From positions 62,001-126,000 of the forward strand of contig DASQWI010000006.1 of the NCBI GenBank assembly GCA_035640355.1: a stretch of 64,000 nucleotides of DNA, written 5' to 3'. The stretch is from Actinomycetota bacterium. GTDB taxonomy: Bacteria; Actinomycetota; UBA4738; HRBIN12. This document shows, piece after piece, positions 28,633-37,509 of this stretch. The position numbers and the translations under genes are program-made. Within the stretch, counting starts at the first letter, position 1, and every line of letters begins with the position of its first letter. Below the pieces are notes generated by a model. That model ran no database searches. It saw nothing but the letters and a program-made list of their open reading frames with translations, and had not been told where the DNA came from.

Positions 28633-29031
28633 CTACGAGCCGGCCGTCACGAGCTGACTCGTACAGTTCGGACAGCGCACAGCATTGATGGGGATCTCCG
28701 TCTGACAGTACTCACAAGGCTTGGTGTTCTTCGGCTCTTCAGTCGGTGCGTTCAGCCGGTTGTACGCCTGGACCAAAAGGAACAGAACCCACGCGATGAT
28801 CAGGAAGCTCACCACGGCGGTGAGGAACGCTCCATACGGGATCGGCGTGTCATTCAAGGTGAACGTGAGGTGATCGAAACTCACCTCGGCGCCGAAGATG
28901 GCAGCGATGAAACTCAGAATGATGTTGGTGAACGCGGTCACCACGGTCGCGAATGCGACTCCCAGGATGAAGGCCACGGCCAGCTCGAGGAGATTGCCGC
29001 GCATCACGAACTTCTTGAACTCAGCAAGCAT
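28633..29031 (-). CDS. mscL: large-conductance mechanosensitive channel with C-terminal zinc ribbon
   Basis: A 132-residue MscL, which opens under membrane tension to release osmolytes during hypo-osmotic shock. It has the N-terminal amphipathic helix (MLAEFKKFVMRGNLLELAVA), TM1 (AFILGVAFATVVTAFTNIIL) with the conserved small residues, a periplasmic loop and TM2 (YGAFLTAVVSFLIIAWVLFLLV). Instead of the usual C-terminal helical bundle alone, residues 106-123 form a zinc ribbon (C106, C109, C120, C123; CEYCQTEIPINAVRCPNC). The start is ATG 29031. The zinc ribbon variant is present in some actinobacterial MscL proteins. Confidence 0.93.
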   Translation of the reverse strand: MLAEFKKFVMRGNLLELAVAFILGVAFATVVTAFTNIILSFIAAIFGAEVSFDHLTFTLNDTPIPYGAFLTAVVSFLIIAWVLFLLVQAYNRLNAPTEEPKNTKPCEYCQTEIPINAVRCPNCTSQLVTAGS

Positions 29032-29130: not shown

Positions 29131-30888
29131 CTACGCCAGGTCCTGAGGCGGTCTGGGGAATGTCACGGAGTCAGCGTCCGACGGGTCTTCGCTCGGCGCC
29201 CGAAGCATCTGCACGCGTCGTAGCTCGCTCTTGAATTGTTCTTCCAAGTCGGCGACACGAATGCTCTGCTCTTCGATCGCCGCTCGGACAGTTGTCAACC
29301 TACGGACCAATTCCTGGGCGTCGTCAACGTTTTGCTGCGATGCGAAGGAATGGCTGTTCACGGCTGTGAGATCGTCAGTCTCGCCCGTTTGGGAGCTTGA
29401 GATTCCCAAATGGAGGTGGGTGATCGGCCCTCGCTGGCTTCGGCGCCGGCGGGTTGAACGGGACACTGCCTCGAGCACGCCGAGGGCCGGTGGGACAACG
29501 ATGAGTCCGGGATTGATGGGCGTCGCGTCTGTCGTCGGCGACGGCGTCTCGGTGGGCTCCGGTTCGGGACTTGGCGACGGCGTCTCGGTCGAACTGGGCG
29601 AGGGGGACTCGGTCGGTGACGGTGTCTCGCTCGGGGTGGGCGACGGTGTCTCGCTCGGAGTCGGCGACGGCGTGTCCGTCGGACTGGTCGACGGCGTTTC
29701 GGTCGGAGTCGGCGACGGAGTGTCAGTCGGAGTGGGCGACGGAGTGTCGGACGGAGTCGGCGTCGGCGTCTCCGTTGGTTCGGGTTCCGGACTGGGCGAC
29801 GGCGTCCCGGTCGGTTCCGGTTCGGGACTGGGCGACGGCGTGTTCGTCGGTTCCGGTTCGGGACTCGGCGACGGCGTGTTCGTCGGTTCCGGTTCGGGAC
29901 TCGGCGTTGGTCTCGGCGGTGGGCCGTGACTCGGCTCCGGTTCGGGACTGGGGGCGGGCGTCTCGCTCGGGACGGGCGATTCTGGCGACGGGCTTACCGT
30001 TGCGCTCTCGTCCGGCGGCGGCGATGGCTCCGGCGTGATGGTCGAATCGACGGGAGGCGGGGGAGCTTCGCTTCCCGGCACCAGGTCTCTGAGGATGGCA
30101 AGCAATGTCGTAGCGGCCTCCGGCGACATCGACGGCACCAGTGGTCGCAGCGTTGTGGCGATCTGCTCGTCGAGGGCAGTGACATCTCCGCCCGAGGCCA
30201 AAGCCAGCGCTCGCTGCGTCCACAGCGTCGCCGCGAGTGATCCCACCTCGGAGGGGTCCGCGGTCGACACACGCTCGGCCAGTTCGTCCAGAGACCGGAA
30301 CGCCGCGGAGATATGCACGTTCGCTTCGCGATTTCCGTCAGGACCCGACGGCACGCCGCCGTAAGGACCAACGAACAGGGCGATGGCGATGATCAGGATC
30401 GCCGCCGCGGCGGCGCCCTGCATTCGTTCCAGCCAACGTAGATGGTTGCGCACCCCTGGTTCGCTCAACGAAAGAGGTTCGAGTGCGGCTTGGACGCGGG
30501 CCGTCTCGGTCCGTACGCCTCGCCGCGTGCTCTCGAGCGCGAAGCCCAGCTCCTTGATGCCGGCCCCTTCCTCGATGACCGAATCGGCCTCGCCGAGCAG
30601 CTCGGCTGGCGCTGTGGTGTCCGATGATGTGACGAGGATGAACTTCGTCGCCGGCGACGCGCGTCGGAGGTCGGCAATGACTGGAACGCCGTGGTCGACG
30701 GCGGTGTTCTCGTTGAGGACGAGCACGTCGGGTTGGTATTCGCGGACGGCTTCCGCGGTATCGTGCGCAGCCCCCGCCTCGGCGACGACGACGTAACCCG
30801 CCTCGTCGAGAAGGAAACGAACGAGGCCGCGTTCGAGCGGGCGTCCGTCTGCGACGACGGCGCGCGGCTGCGAGGTTGTTCGCCTCAT
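29131..30888 (-). CDS. membrane protein with degenerate receiver domain and Pro/Ser/Thr repeat
   Basis: A 585-residue protein in four parts. Residues 1-125 resemble a response-regulator receiver, but the phospho-acceptor position is Asn59 (PDVLVLNEN) and the conserved Lys is replaced in SVIEEGAG, so phosphorylation is unlikely. One membrane segment lies near 156-175 ([16 protein letters not shown]). A helical stretch precedes a ~200-residue low-complexity region of [12 protein letters not shown]-type repeats. The C-terminal ~100 residues include a coiled coil ([19 protein letters not shown]). The repeat probably spans the wall as a stalk. ATG 30888 has GAAGAG at proper spacing; ATG 30894 does not. 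No family assigned. Confidence 0.72.
29530..29975. repeat. tandem repeat encoding Pro/Ser/Thr-rich stalk
   Basis: Imperfect tandem repeats of 18-36 bases within the preceding gene. The clearest array is a 36-base unit repeated near 29812-29910 (core GGTTCCGGTTCGGGACT), and 24-base variants built on GTCGGAGTCGGCGACGG fill 29630-29765. Such arrays vary in copy number between strains and are prone to assembly collapse. Confidence 0.85.
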
Positions 30889-30917
30889 GCCCATCTCTTC
30901 AGTGATAGCCCTCGTTC

Positions 30918-30989
30918 CTGTATAGCCCATCACGGCCACGTGTACAGCTACCTAACCGGACTAGTCCTTTCGGCCGATGCAGGCTCGGC
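30918..30989 (-). promoter_or_regulatory. structured leader upstream of the degenerate-receiver gene
   Basis: On the minus strand the 134-base gap before the receiver-like gene holds a hairpin GCCGA-7 bases-TCGGC (30989-30973), then the perfect 10-base palindrome GGACTAGTCC (30967-30958), then AGGTAGCTGTAC and a distant CTGTA/TACAG pair (30918-30947). The order of small stems looks like a structured RNA leader or a compound operator. I cannot assign it to a known riboswitch class. Confidence 0.35.
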
Positions 30990-31314: not shown

Positions 31315-31926
31315 TCAGTTCCGCGCTCGCATGGCTGCCTCTGCAACGACGACGGCGCGCGTCGGGACGCGTCGGTTCCAGACGACGATCGCTGGGCCGT
31401 CGCGCTCGTGCGAGAGGATGGATACCGACGACGGGTCGATCCGGAGATGAGTCCCGAACGTTATCGGGAGCCCGAGGAACCGAGCGCCGATCGCCCGCAT
31501 GCAGTGGCCGTGGCCGAACAGCAACACGCTCGGGCCGAGCGTCTGAATCTCCCCAAGCAGCGCGTTGATGCGGTGCTCGATCTGCTGTGGCGTCTCGCCG
31601 CCTGGACTGCCTTCTCGGAAGAGCTCCCAGCCGGGAGCCTTGTCCCAGATCTCGTTCGTCGTGAGTCCTTCGTAGTCGCCGTAGTCGACTTCCGTCAGCG
31701 CATCGTTCGTCTGCACGCGGTCACCGAAGCCCGCGAGCTTCGCCGTGTTGACGGCGCGTTGCATGGGGCTCGACAGCACCGCGTCGAAGCGGTGATCCGC
31801 GAGGAGCTTGCCCATCGCGACGGCCTGGAGCTCTCCTTCGACGGTGAGCGGGAGGTCGGTTCGACTCGTGTGTTGACCCGACAGTGTCCATTCCGTCTCG
31901 CCGTGTCGAACGAGCCAGATCGACAT
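31315..31926 (-). CDS. histidine phosphatase family protein
   Basis: A 203-residue member of the phosphoglycerate-mutase-like superfamily. The catalytic RHG motif is at the N-terminus (WLVRHGETEWTLSGQHTSRTD). Other active-site residues are in VLSSPMQRAVNTAKLAGF, the acidic EVDYGDYEGLT and the second His in VLLFGHGHCMRAIGARFL. It is likely a small-molecule phosphatase rather than glycolytic mutase; the substrate is not evident. The start is ATG 31926, 67 bases from the divergent radical SAM gene. Confidence 0.93.
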   Translation of the reverse strand: MSIWLVRHGETEWTLSGQHTSRTDLPLTVEGELQAVAMGKLLADHRFDAVLSSPMQRAVNTAKLAGFGDRVQTNDALTEVDYGDYEGLTTNEIWDKAPGWELFREGSPGGETPQQIEHRINALLGEIQTLGPSVLLFGHGHCMRAIGARFLGLPITFGTHLRIDPSSVSILSHERDGPAIVVWNRRVPTRAVVVAEAAMRARN

Positions 31927-31993: not shown

Positions 31994-33994
31994 ATGCCCG
32001 AACAGCTCTTCGAGATCGCCCGGCGGACGTTCGACACCCCGGAGTTCCGCGGGATCGAGTTCATCGAGGCGGAGTGCAAGACGATCATCAATCAGGTCCC
32101 GGGCAACTACCTGCCGTTCAAGTACACGATCAACCCGTATCGGGGATGCTCGCATGCTTGTGAGTACTGCCAGATCGGTGAGACTCCGATCTTGATGGGA
32201 GACGGCCGAACGAAGCCTCTCGCCGATGTGGAGGTGGGAGACGAGGTATACGGGACCGTGGCTGGAGACAAGTACCACTACTACGTCAAGACGCGCGTGC
32301 TCGCCCATTGGTCGACAGTGAAGACCGCGTACCGAATCACATTGGTAGACGGAACTGAGCTCGTTGCCAGTGGTGACCATCGCTATTTGTCGAACCGAGG
32401 TTGGAAGTACGTAACCGGATCGGAGCAGGGGCCCGATCAGCGACCGCACCTCACTCTGAGGAACAAACTGATGGGCACCGGCCGCTTCGCGATCCAACCG
32501 ATCCACGACACGCATTATCGATACGGCTATCTCTGCGGAATGATTCGCGGAGACGGCCACCTATCGACTGATGCGGCATTTTCATCTACTCGTGTGGCCA
32601 ATCAGTTTCGTCTCGCGCTCGTCGATCTAGAGGCGCTCCGGCGAACACGTGAGTATCTGACCGAATTCGACATCGCTACGCGAGAGTTCCTCTTCCAAGA
32701 GGCGGTCGGCGCAAGGAAGGCGTTGTCTGCGATTAGCGCCTCAGGCCGCACCCGCGTCTACGCAATCGAGGATATTTGTTCGATCCCGACCAACCCATCC
32801 GATTCCTGGCGCAAGGGATTCCTTGCCGGAATCTTCGACGCTGAAGGCAGCTATAGTTGCGGCATCCTGCGTATCGCAAACACCAATGCGATTGTGATCG
32901 AGCGGCTTGTTCATTGCTTGCGTCGGTTTGGGTTCCGCTTCAGGCTGGAGGTAAAAAAACGAAAGAACCCTGTCGTCTACGTCTGTGTCCTGGGTGGTGT
33001 ACGCGAGCATCTTCGCTTCTTTCACACCGTAGATCCGGCTATCACGAGGAAGCGTTCGATCGACGGCCAAGCTATCAAGAGCAATGCGCCGTTGGGAGTC
33101 GAAGCCGTCGAACCACTGGGTGTCGACCTACCGATGTACGACATCACCACCGGCACCGGCGACTTCATCGCGAATGGAGTCGTGAGCCACAACTGCTTTG
33201 CCCGACCGACGCACACGTACCTCGACATGAACGCGGGCAAGGACTTCGAGTCGAAGATCGTCGTCAAGGTCAACGCACCCGATGTTCTGCGTCGTCAGCT
33301 CGGCGCCAAGAAGTGGAAGGGCGAGGGCATCGCGATGGGCACGAACACCGACCCGTATCAGCGCGCCGAGGGCCGATACAAGCTGATGCCCAGGATCATC
33401 GAGGCGCTCAGTGATTACCGGAACCCGTTCTCGATCCTCACGAAGGGAACGCTGATCCTGCGCGACCTCGACCGGCTCGTCGAGGCGGCGAACGTCACGG
33501 AGGTCACGACGGCGTTCTCGATCGGGACGCTCGACGAGGACGTTTGGCGCACGAGCGAGCCCGGCACGCCCCACCCGAAGGCTCGCATGGAGGCCGTCGC
33601 GGCCCTGAACGAAGCGGGCATCCCGTGCGGGATCCTGATGGCGCCGGTCCTTCCGGGCATCTCCGATCGTCCTGACCAACTCCGAGCGGTGGTTGTCGCC
33701 GCGATCGATGCGGGCGCCACGCACGTCTCGCCGATCCTGTTGCACCTGCGGCCTGGCGTGCGCGAGGAGTTCATGCCGTGGCTCGCAGAGACCTACCCGG
33801 ACCTCGTTCCCCGTTACGAGCAGATGTACCGAACGCCGTACGGACCGCCCGGCGACCGGAACGCGCTCGGCGATGCTGTCGGCGATCTCATTCGCGAACT
33901 CGGCGGCACGCGGCCGGCGCCGGAGCGCCCCCGCCGGTGGCGAACCTCGGAACGCCCTCGTGGAGAGAAAGCCGAACAGCTCGAGCTCCTTTGA
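31994..33994 (+). CDS. Rv2578c-type radical SAM protein interrupted by an intein
   Basis: A 666-residue precursor; removal of the 342-residue intein leaves 324 residues. The extein resembles the mycobacterial Rv2578c family (spore-photoproduct-lyase-like). The [4Fe-4S] motif is Cys-x3-Cys-x2-Cys, GCSHACEY before the intein and CFARPTHTY after it, so the third cluster Cys is the first residue after the intein. Downstream motifs include MGTNTDPYQRAEG and GIPCGILMAPVLPG. The physiological reaction is unknown. The host enzyme can only bind its cluster after splicing. Start ATG 31994; an upstream in-frame start at 31925 would overlap the divergent promoter region. Confidence 0.95.
   Translation: MPEQLFEIARRTFDTPEFRGIEFIEAECKTIINQVPGNYLPFKYTINPYRGCSHACEYCQIGETPILMGDGRTKPLADVEVGDEVYGTVAGDKYHYYVKTRVLAHWSTVKTAYRITLVDGTELVASGDHRYLSNRGWKYVTGSEQGPDQRPHLTLRNKLMGTGRFAIQPIHDTHYRYGYLCGMIRGDGHLSTDAAFSSTRVANQFRLALVDLEALRRTREYLTEFDIATREFLFQEAVGARKALSAISASGRTRVYAIEDICSIPTNPSDSWRKGFLAGIFDAEGSYSCGILRIANTNAIVIERLVHCLRRFGFRFRLEVKKRKNPVVYVCVLGGVREHLRFFHTVDPAITRKRSIDGQAIKSNAPLGVEAVEPLGVDLPMYDITTGTGDFIANGVVSHNCFARPTHTYLDMNAGKDFESKIVVKVNAPDVLRRQLGAKKWKGEGIAMGTNTDPYQRAEGRYKLMPRIIEALSDYRNPFSILTKGTLILRDLDRLVEAANVTEVTTAFSIGTLDEDVWRTSEPGTPHPKARMEAVAALNEAGIPCGILMAPVLPGISDRPDQLRAVVVAAIDAGATHVSPILLHLRPGVREEFMPWLAETYPDLVPRYEQMYRTPYGPPGDRNALGDAVGDLIRELGGTRPAPERPRRWRTSERPRGEKAEQLELL
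32168..33193 (+). mobile_element. intein with LAGLIDADG homing endonuclease domain
   Basis: In-frame 342-codon intein. It begins with Cys1 (TGC 32168-32170, CQIGETPILMGDGRTKPLA) and ends with His-Asn (MYDITTGTGDFIANGVVSHN) before Cys+1 (33194). Block B is present as VASGDHRYL. Two dodecapeptides mark a DOD endonuclease: YLCGMIRGDGHLST and FLAGIFDAEGSYS, both with the catalytic acidic residue. All splicing residues (C1, penultimate H, terminal N, C+1) are intact. The stretch is less GC-rich than the flanking extein and contains A-rich codons, consistent with horizontal arrival. Confidence 0.96.
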
Positions 33995-34052
33995 GCGAGT
34001 GTCATCGCCCTGCCCAGCGGTGGTTCAATGCGCATCGGCTACCCTCATGTCG

Positions 34053-34763
34053 ATGCGCGGGATGGACCGACTGCTCGATCTCCAAGCCACCGATTCCTCG
34101 ATCGACCGTCTCGAGCATCGCCGCGGGCAGCTCGAGGCGGGCGAAGACCTGGCGATCGCCAGAAAGCAGATGGAGGACGCCGAGTCGCGACTCGGCGAGC
34201 TTCGCCTCGCGCTCGACTCGGTCGCCTCGCAGTCGTCTCGATTCGAACACGACATCGAATCGATTGGCCGAAAGCTCGACGACGAGCAAAAGCGCATGTA
34301 CGACGGGAGTATCGCCAACGCCAAGGAGCTCGAAGCGCTCCAGCACGAGATCACGAACCTGAAGGAGCGACGGTCTCGCGCCGAAGATGAGGTGCTCGAG
34401 CTTATGGTTCGACGTGAGGAGATGGACGCCCGCACATCGAAGGCGACGGAGGAGGTCGCGGCCGCTCGTGCGCGCGTGGATGAGGTCGGCGGTGACGCGG
34501 CGAGAGAGCTGGACGACATAGCCCGGAACCTCGACGAACTTCGCGCGACGCGCTCGGAGCTCACCAACCAGATCGACGAGGAGCTGCTCGAGCTGTACGA
34601 CGACCTCCGTCGACAGAAGAAGGGGATCGGCGCCGCGGCGATCGTCGACGGCGTGTGCCAGGCGTGCCACGAGAAGCTTTCCGCGATGGAGCTGGACCGG
34701 CTGAAGCGCGACGACGGCATCAAAAGGTGCGAGTACTGCCGGCGGATCGTCGTCTTCGCGTGA
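34053..34763 (+). CDS. C4-type zinc-ribbon coiled-coil protein
   Basis: A 236-residue protein, mostly long coiled coil (about residues 10-180, heptads such as LDDEQKRMYDGSIANAKELE). The C-terminal zinc ribbon is VCQACHEKLSAMELDRLKR then RCEYCRRIVVF, four Cys in two pairs. It matches the widespread actinobacterial zf-RING_7 protein that precedes an RNase H gene (mycobacterial Rv2229c-like). Molecular role is unclear; a nucleic-acid or ribosome-linked function has been suggested for relatives. ATGs at 34047, 34053 and 34062 are all possible. The stop overlaps the RNase H start (GTGA). Confidence 0.88.
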   Translation: MRGMDRLLDLQATDSSIDRLEHRRGQLEAGEDLAIARKQMEDAESRLGELRLALDSVASQSSRFEHDIESIGRKLDDEQKRMYDGSIANAKELEALQHEITNLKERRSRAEDEVLELMVRREEMDARTSKATEEVAAARARVDEVGGDAARELDDIARNLDELRATRSELTNQIDEELLELYDDLRRQKKGIGAAAIVDGVCQACHEKLSAMELDRLKRDDGIKRCEYCRRIVVFA

Positions 34764-35227
34764 TCGTCGCGTGTGACGGTGCCGCGCGGGGCAATCCGGG
34801 CCCCGCCGGCATCGGCGTTCAGATCACCGACACGAATGGAGCGGTTCTTGCCGAGGTCGCCGAAGGCATCGGCGTGGCCACGAACAACGTCGCCGAGTAC
34901 ACGGCTGCGATCCGCGGGCTGGAACGCGTTGCAGAGCTGGGCGCGACCGATGTGTTGCTGCGTTCTGACAGCAGACTGCTCGTCGAGCAGCTCTCGGGCA
35001 GATACCGAGTGAAGAACCCCACGCTGCAGCGGTTGCATGCTCGCGTACGGTCGCTCGCCGCCGGATTCCGAGCCGTTCGGTACGAGCACGTTCCACGCGA
35101 GGAGAACATAGAGGCCGATCGACTGGCGAACGACGGCGTGGATGCGTGGCTCGCCGGAGCCGGCGCTACGTGGTCACGTCCCCCGCGGTCTCCTGGTCTG
35201 CTGGAGGGGGAGGAGGAACGGACGTAA
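34760..35227 (+). CDS. RNase H-like protein
   Basis: A 155-residue type I RNase H fold protein, which would cleave RNA in RNA-DNA hybrids. The catalytic carboxylates are D6 (ACDGAARGNPGPAG), E46 (NVAEYTAAI), D70 (LLRSDSRLLVEQ) and D120 (NIEADRLAND). In mycobacteria the equivalent (Rv2228c) carries a C-terminal CobC-like phosphatase domain; here the protein stops after RNase H with a short acidic tail, so it is the single-domain form. Start GTG 34760 overlaps the upstream stop. The 3' end overlaps the convergent lipoprotein gene by 62 bases. Confidence 0.92.
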   Translation: MIVACDGAARGNPGPAGIGVQITDTNGAVLAEVAEGIGVATNNVAEYTAAIRGLERVAELGATDVLLRSDSRLLVEQLSGRYRVKNPTLQRLHARVRSLAAGFRAVRYEHVPREENIEADRLANDGVDAWLAGAGATWSRPPRSPGLLEGEEERT

Positions 35228-36540: not shown

Positions 36541-37509
36541 TCAGCCCGCGAGCGCTGCGTTCGCGCCGATCGCGCGCCGAAGCTGCTTGCCGGCGTGGTA
36601 GCTGGAACGAACGAGTGGCCCGGCCTCGACGTGGGAGATGCCGAGCTCGCTCTCACCGAAGCGCTCCCACCGGGCGAACTCGTCCGGGTGTACCCACCGG
36701 TCGACGGGCAGGTGATAGGTGGTCGGCTGCAGGTACTGCCCGATCGTCACGATGTCCACGCCGGCGTTTGCCAGGTCGTTCAGGGCCTCCGGAATCTCGT
36801 CCGGGGTCTCGCCCATGCCGAGGATGAGATTCGACTTGGTGATCTGCCGTTCGCGCAGACGCTTGGCGATCCGGAGCACCTCGAGCGAGCGACCGTAGCC
36901 GAAGGCCGGCCGAATCCGGCCGTGAAGACGGCGCACGGTCTCCAGGTTGTGCGCGAAGACGTCGGGCTCGGCCTGGATGACCGTCGCGATGTCGCGCTCG
37001 CCGCCCTTGAAGTCGGTCGGCAGCACCTCGACGCCACAACCGGGTACCGCGTGGCGAACGGCTCTGATCGCGCTGGCCCATATTCGCGCGCCGCCGTCCG
37101 GAAGATCGTCGCGGGCGACGCCCGTGAGGACGACGAACCGAAGACCCATCTCCTTCACGGCCTCGGCTATCCGTCGGGGCTCGTCCTCGTCGACCGGATC
37201 GGGCTTTGCCGTCATGACGTCGCAGAAGCCACAGCGACGGGTGCACTTGTCGCCGAGCATGAGGAACGTCGCCTCGCGCTCCTCCCAACACTCGTGGATG
37301 TTCGGGCACATCGCCTCTTCGCACACCGTGTGCAGCGAGAGGCCGCGCATGATGCCTTTCAGCTCCTGGTAGTTCGGTCCGGTCTGGAGTCGAACCTTCA
37401 GCCACGGTGGCTTGCGTTCGTCGTCGACCGGGGGAGCGGTCGGCTTCCCGTTCGTCGACACGATCGGCAGATGGAGCCGGCGGTGGTTGGGGTTGTGATC
37501 GGCGTTCAT
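36541..37509 (-). CDS. lipA: lipoyl synthase
   Basis: A 322-residue radical SAM enzyme that inserts two sulfurs into octanoyl groups on E2/GcvH to make lipoate. Auxiliary cluster Cys63, Cys68 and Cys74 lie in CEEAMCPNIHECW; the radical SAM cluster Cys89, Cys93 and Cys96 lie in CTRRCGFC. The C-terminal RSSYHAG carries the conserved Arg-Ser-Ser-Tyr. ATG 37509 overlaps the E1beta stop (ATGA), placing lipA third in the E1alpha-E1beta-lipA unit. Its partner lipB is at 41417, and SUF genes that could supply clusters are in the same window. Confidence 0.97.
   Translation of the reverse strand: MNADHNPNHRRLHLPIVSTNGKPTAPPVDDERKPPWLKVRLQTGPNYQELKGIMRGLSLHTVCEEAMCPNIHECWEEREATFLMLGDKCTRRCGFCDVMTAKPDPVDEDEPRRIAEAVKEMGLRFVVLTGVARDDLPDGGARIWASAIRAVRHAVPGCGVEVLPTDFKGGERDIATVIQAEPDVFAHNLETVRRLHGRIRPAFGYGRSLEVLRIAKRLRERQITKSNLILGMGETPDEIPEALNDLANAGVDIVTIGQYLQPTTYHLPVDRWVHPDEFARWERFGESELGISHVEAGPLVRSSYHAGKQLRRAIGANAALAG

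Follow-up and report, generated by a model that had tools for sequence, protein, structure and literature searches.

A radical SAM gene of the Rv2578c family is interrupted, directly before the third cysteine of its cluster motif, by an intein that we interpret, with a probability of about 0.88, as a mobile and most likely splicing-competent class 1 LAGLIDADG element which homed into the gene from another lineage. The gene lies in a stretch of 64,000 nucleotides, referred to here as the window. A chance reading can be discounted, as 92 distinct inteins were identified at exactly this site and the gene of a congener is uninterrupted. Taken alone, the element is nothing out of the ordinary within its curated family. 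The pattern to which it belongs could be new: judged from the sequences, one stock of inteins appears to be inserted consistently at the third cluster cysteine of radical SAM enzymes from many families.

The interrupted gene and its intein

The precursor gene has an open frame of 705 codons without a stop, in which a further in-frame ATG occurs upstream, at 31925. Its product consists of a radical SAM N-part, the intein and a radical SAM C-part, in this order, and reads ...INPYRGC52-SHA-C56-EY-[C59 QIGETPIL...GVVSH399 N400]-C401 FARPTH... at the junctions. The features are as follows.

31994-33994, + strand: precursor gene, Rv2578c-family radical SAM protein with intein, 666 aa
31994-32167, + strand: N-extein, ending GC-SHA-C-EY
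32118-32167, + strand: stretch of excess divergence upstream of the junction (11 differences in 50 nt against the empty allele), probable co-conversion tract
32147-32161, + strand: cluster cysteines 1 and 2 of the CxxxCxxC motif, Cys52 (32147-32149) and Cys56 (32159-32161)
32168-33193, + strand: class 1 intein of 342 aa with LAGLIDADG homing endonuclease domain, GC 57.1%
32168-32170, + strand: intein Cys1 (Cys59), third-ligand slot of CxxxCxxC in the unspliced precursor
32354-32380, + strand: block B, TELVASGDH (SxxH form)
32531-32557, + strand: LAGLIDADG motif 1, LCGMIRGDG, Asp187 intact
32822-32848, + strand: LAGLIDADG motif 2, LAGIFDAEG, Glu284 intact
33134-33193, + strand: blocks F and G, MYDITTGTGDFIANGVVSHN (Asp383, His399, Asn400)
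33194-33994, + strand: C-extein, its first residue Cys401 being the +1 nucleophile and, once spliced, the third ligand

The sequence-only reading had placed an intein exactly at the third cysteine of the cluster motif, at 32168-33193, and had equated the +1 nucleophile with the third cluster ligand. Both statements hold: Cys401 completes C-SHA-C-EY-C after splicing, so that the product carries the CxxxCxxC motif of the radical SAM superfamily (C52-SHA-C56-EY-C401), and intein-less homologues read CxxxCxYCFAR. The same reading was right that the splicing residues and both LAGLIDADG blocks are intact. In addition to Asp187 and Glu284 of the endonuclease, the protein possesses Cys1, Ser126/His129 in block B, Asp383 in block F, the terminal His399-Asn400 and Cys401 at +1, the set by which a class 1 intein is recognised from sequence, and those splicing residues that lie inside the intein are invariant across a 13-member intein alignment. 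Block B is of the SxxH rather than the TxxH form, its most conserved residue, His129, is intact, and a simple pattern count found Ser in 87 of the 92 relatives; the replacement of Thr by Ser is family-wide and therefore probably harmless.

What could not be upheld is the claim that no cluster can be assembled until splicing is complete. Cys1 of the intein occupies the third-ligand slot, and CxxxCxxC is therefore complete both before and after splicing. The precursor enzyme may well be inactive, though not through a missing ligand.

Inteins in Rv2578c-type proteins are known, as the sequence-only reading stated, and NCBI curates a model for them (NF038136, “intein-containing Rv2578c family radical SAM protein”), which matches the window protein with 703 bits at a cut-off of 700. 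The Rv2578c model NF038135 gives 414.7 bits (cut-off 430), its match being split by the intein; the intein-less gene of the congener also remains just below this cut-off (421 bits), and so does the majority of the genes in its family group. Pfam detects Radical_SAM (PF04055) and LAGLIDADG_3 (PF14528, 40.1 bits). A search with PF14528 revealed no second intein in the genome to which the window belongs, while PF14890 is too insensitive for such a census, as it misses the window intein too. The fold predicted for the precursor (38-sequence alignment, mean pLDDT 83, pTM 0.61, with low confidence for residues 52-55) matches the intein-endonucleases PI-SceI and PI-PfuI and the endonuclease I-DmoI.

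In base composition the intein stands apart from its surroundings, with a GC content of 57.1% (GC3 67%) against 67.0% (GC3 84%) for the C-extein and 67.4% for the window as a whole; GC3 of the exteins ranges from 84-88%. This comparison of 32168-33193 with its flanks, like a search for orthologues devoid of the intein, had been proposed on the basis of the sequence alone.

The following genes are found in the neighbourhood.

28633-29031: MscL channel
31315-31926: histidine phosphatase
33693-34763: CT398-like coiled coil with zinc ribbon
34655-35227: RNase H
36541-37509: lipoyl synthase, itself a radical SAM protein, without intein

The region also includes, on the minus strand at 29131-30939, a gene of unusual architecture: behind a response-regulator receiver domain come a transmembrane-like segment and a long region of Ser/Thr/Pro/Glu repeats.

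Empty alleles, probable homing and the census at the site

Within the class, the gene was identified in 19 of 27 genomes and the intein in only 3. The gene of a congener (G008; loci L016 and L091) is uninterrupted and encodes a protein of 96% identity, and 49 other empty genes are available for comparison. When the window flanks are joined across the intein, they align to the congener with 94.1% identity over 5.5 kb and reveal a clean empty site.

In a tree of 109 exteins, computed from intein-bearing and empty genes, presence or absence of the intein switches no fewer than 13 times. The nearest neighbour of the window extein is that of the empty congener, while the window intein groups with those of L008 (family f2) and L009, whose exteins lie far off; against these two, intein identity (63-65%) exceeds extein identity (57-59%). 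No sampled relative of the window intein is more than 65% identical to it.

The exteins of window and congener differ at 46 positions, 15 of which fall within 100 nt at the junction (binomial 2.5e-5, calculated post hoc), with 11 in the 50 nt upstream and 4 in the 50 nt after 33193. We read this as a sign that the intein recently homed into the window lineage and that a short flanking tract was co-converted. The co-conversion argument is weakened by an uneven divergence along the locus, as differences are crowded again some 2.4-2.6 kb downstream of the junction. Because the surrounding sites are empty and differences accumulate at the junction, a gain in the window lineage is favoured over a loss in the congener.

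The 92 inteins at the exact site were parsed from Rv2578c- and PA0069-type genes in named genomes and phylum scans; the parse demands the motif before the insert and hence documents the third-cysteine site only, other sites being possible. The hosts are uncultured Actinomycetota, Micromonospora, Asanoa, Actinoplanes, Geodermatophilus, Microbacterium and others. Lengths fall into three classes: 57 inteins have at least 320 aa, 21 have 270-315 aa, and 14 have 143-166 aa, the latter being endonuclease-free mini-inteins. This series from full-length through eroded to mini is the usual endonuclease decay. Position 1 is Cys in 91 of the 92 cases. The lone Ser is found in Cryobacterium algoritolerans (L104, 2938-4779), where the C-extein is frameshifted, and for this reason the variant was set aside. 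A broken frame with an in-frame TAG was also seen in an intein-less Rv2578c homologue of a relative (G005, contig C68, 42893-43628; L020, L022), which is likely a pseudogene or an assembly error.

Third-cysteine inteins in other radical SAM families

Scanning viral contigs with the window intein as the single query returned no relative. When an alignment of Rv2578c inteins only was used instead, 24 loci were obtained, and all of the best eight (L155-L162, with intein matches that each start at 2501) carry an intein before the third cysteine of CxxxCx[YF]C. The hosts apparently represent different radical SAM families. These viral loci, together with three from cellular and plasmid DNA, are listed here.

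L155, viral: PA0069-like
L156, viral: sulfatase-maturase or peptide-maturase-like
L157, viral: tungsten-cofactor-maturase-like
L158, viral: PapB-like
L159 and L161, viral: SPASM proteins
L160, viral: DUF1848
L162, viral: Cxxx-repeat RiPP maturase (TIGR04115, 388.9 bits, cut-off 350)
L132, 1381-3101, Streptomyces plasmid: related intein at the last cysteine of CxxxxxCxxC, DUF5131/radical SAM mobile pair A
L212, 838-2796, - strand, G220: related intein at the last cysteine of CxxxxxCxxC, DUF5131/radical SAM mobile pair A
L213, 913-2676, - strand, G117: QueE (7-carboxy-7-deazaguanine synthase; TIGR03365, 309.7 bits), intein at the third cluster cysteine

The inteins of L157, L159 and L161 terminate in Lys-Asn, not His-Asn. 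That of QueE starts with Ser and ends in Arg-Asn; its Ser1 provides a natural control for ideas that involve Cys(-3) and Cys1. The intein-bearing gene of L132 is missing from the gene table of the plasmid and adjoins the three-Cys-motif partner protein TcmP.

None of the 16 weaker viral loci is at the third-cysteine site. Where their context is readable, they are located in other proteins (terminase-like, phosphoesterase-like and others, as judged by eye) or are free-standing endonucleases. Two of the latter, L163 and L169 (around 2501), are close to the endonuclease domain of the window intein, and their N-termini (KIEWTD and KIEWAD) resemble the start of DUF5131 (AIEWTEATWNP); by this resemblance they are possible remnants or relatives of an intein endonuclease at DUF5131 genes.

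The A4 profile, used in a scan of the phylum, derives from third-cysteine inteins and thus scores such inteins more favourably. The viral ranking, based on the Rv2578c-only alignment, is free of this bias, yet relatives are non-independent draws. Strict host specificity for radical SAM proteins was rejected, as a near relative in phage Rctr197k (L131, 292-3561), the only clear one with another type of host protein, is inserted in a helicase-like extein; the record calls it a “radical SAM protein-like protein”, a name that probably stems from similarity of the intein to intein-bearing radical SAM entries. In a tree of 41 inteins, those at the third cysteine cluster, with 3 label changes against a mean of 14 after shuffling. 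A single clade gave an AU p of 0.076, which became 0.25 when the phage helicase intein was added. A strict single origin was not demonstrated by this tree, which needs 3 label changes and in which long branches meet; nor was a single clade rejected. Our literature search, for which subscription papers were mostly outside reach, retrieved no paper on Rv2578c inteins or on the third-cysteine pattern as such.

Predicted splicing, redox precedent and the nature of the element

Splicing would begin with an attack of Cys59 on the Tyr58-Cys59 bond. The thioester would then pass to Cys401, Asn400 would cyclise, and ligation would restore C-SHA-C-EY-C-FARPTH with its [4Fe-4S] motif. An intein is also present in MoaA of Pyrococcus abyssi, and MoaA is a radical SAM protein. 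There, a disulfide between Cys(-3) and Cys1 is reported to block splicing (Callahan 2011, in the accounts given by PMC10663303 and PMC3922620). The sequence-only reading had raised the possibility of a switch by iron, redox or oxidants, and for the redox part of this idea the MoaA intein offers a direct experimental precedent. Cys56 of the window precursor is at extein position -3 relative to the intein, so that Cys56 and Cys59 are placed as in the MoaA redox trap, and oxidation could block the first step. By this precedent the redox-relevant pair would be Cys56 and Cys59, not the +1 nucleophile alone. A block by oxidation is probably within the chemistry of the precursor and a likely property of it; its use as a physiological switch is hypothetical.

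Zinc and copper inhibit other inteins by binding to active-site residues (PMC10663303), and the nucleophile could be sequestered by a metal or cluster held between Cys52, Cys56 and Cys1. As the MoaA disulfide has a precedent, while none was found for the cluster-binding idea, the Cys(-3)-Cys1 disulfide would be the better-founded switch, and it would also be better founded than one based on the absence of a ligand.

Of several possible explanations for the presence of the intein, we lean towards a purely selfish element with constitutive, condition-independent splicing, whose site is due to target conservation alone. Its endonuclease looks active, its distribution is patchy, and both the horizontal signal and the divergence at the junction are in accord with this explanation, as is the general preference of inteins for conserved active-site positions. 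The mean distance to active-site residues is reported as 8.3 A for inteins and 21.1 A for other C/S/T residues (PMC3359363), so that placement at a conserved C/S/T beside the active site is usually what inteins do, and conserved insertion sites have been argued to slow intein loss and to resist host immunity (PMC2814812). An invariant cluster motif would suit the element well: it would be a lasting target that provides Cys at +1 and an almost invariant aromatic residue at -1, in a protein of indispensable function from which only exact removal would keep the enzyme. The invariant Cys, the aromatic residue and the indispensable function thus suffice to explain the site without a benefit to the host. 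Target conservation explains less well why the stock keeps to radical SAM DNA that shares little beyond the motif; our best guess is that both the splicing domain and the endonuclease have become adapted to C-x-[YF]|C, which is probably the reason for the host preference. A selfish origin is, moreover, compatible with condition-dependent splicing, and redox sensitivity in vitro is chemically likely from the Cys(-3)/Cys1 pair.

It is from this pair that a competing explanation starts, in which a Cys56-Cys59 disulfide would halt splicing under oxidation and free the oxygen-labile enzyme only under reducing conditions, a benefit that would help to keep the intein. We consider this possible but distinctly less probable than a purely selfish element. 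The spacing is exactly that reported for the MoaA redox trap and recurs in all third-cysteine inteins seen, except for the QueE intein and the frameshifted L104. Conservation is no evidence here, as Cys(-3) is retained anyway as a cluster ligand and Cys1 is needed for splicing; conservation as a test of switch against parasite was accordingly rejected, Cys(-3), Cys1 and Cys(+1) each being needed for other reasons. Persistence of mini-inteins without endonuclease (14 of 92) could indicate a benefit, but would also follow from the requirement that a deletion be exact. The patchy distribution and the congener without intein count against redox gating, and the QueE intein with its Ser1 cannot form the disulfide. 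Extending the idea to a superfamily-wide stock at the third cysteine, with at least eight families (actinobacteria, plasmids, phages), where Cys1 would be a placeholder for the ligand until splicing hands the position to Cys(+1), and where maturation would be sensitive to redox state or cluster, seems doubtful to us.

More improbable by a clear margin is gating by the cluster itself, where CxxxCxxC of the precursor would bind iron or [4Fe-4S] via Cys1 and so restrain splicing, which would hand the slot to Cys(+1). The motif is complete in the window precursor and in every third-cysteine intein seen that has Cys1, and the inhibition of other inteins by zinc and copper would fit. The folded intein active site may, however, keep Cys1 out of a cluster (confidence of the predicted model is low for residues 52-55), the QueE relative has Ser1, and Cys1 is accounted for by splicing alone. 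We give least credence to a degenerate, non-splicing element that leaves the enzyme dead. The enzyme may be dispensable, as its gene was not found in 8 of the 27 genomes of the class (several of them incomplete), and the relative L104 combines Ser1 with a frameshift; against this, the window gene has retained all its splicing and endonuclease residues and a complete extein, in a frame uninterrupted by stops.

Every third-cysteine precursor with Cys1 carries a MoaA-type pair together with a complete cluster motif. The single case of MoaA thereby becomes a general question, namely whether inteins at iron-sulfur sites gate maturation by redox state or iron, or whether such sites simply serve a parasite well. 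Some hosts, Micromonospora and Microbacterium among them, are mesophilic, aerobic and tractable, and naturally occurring empty, full-length, mini and Ser1 versions can serve as controls.

Among known systems, the closest is the NF038136 family, which has the same host family and architecture as the window protein and differs in nothing essential. A curated intein model also exists for the tetraether lipid synthase Tes (NF045703), likewise a radical SAM enzyme; this model is weakly matched by the QueE intein. The similarity to PI-SceI and the TliVMA intein (E values in the 1e-13 range), to PI-PfuI (7e-13) and to I-DmoI (TM 0.7-0.78, for the endonuclease part) is one between a predicted model and known folds; PI-SceI, PI-PfuI and I-DmoI differ from the window intein in host protein and site, and sequence identity is about 15%. 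The intein of P. abyssi MoaA resembles that of the window, as far as the reported spacing allows the two to be likened, in its radical SAM host, the Cys at -3 and the catalytic Cys1, and its -3 spacing matches an insertion at the third cluster cysteine, as in the window protein. It differs in belonging to another radical SAM family and to an archaeal hyperthermophile.
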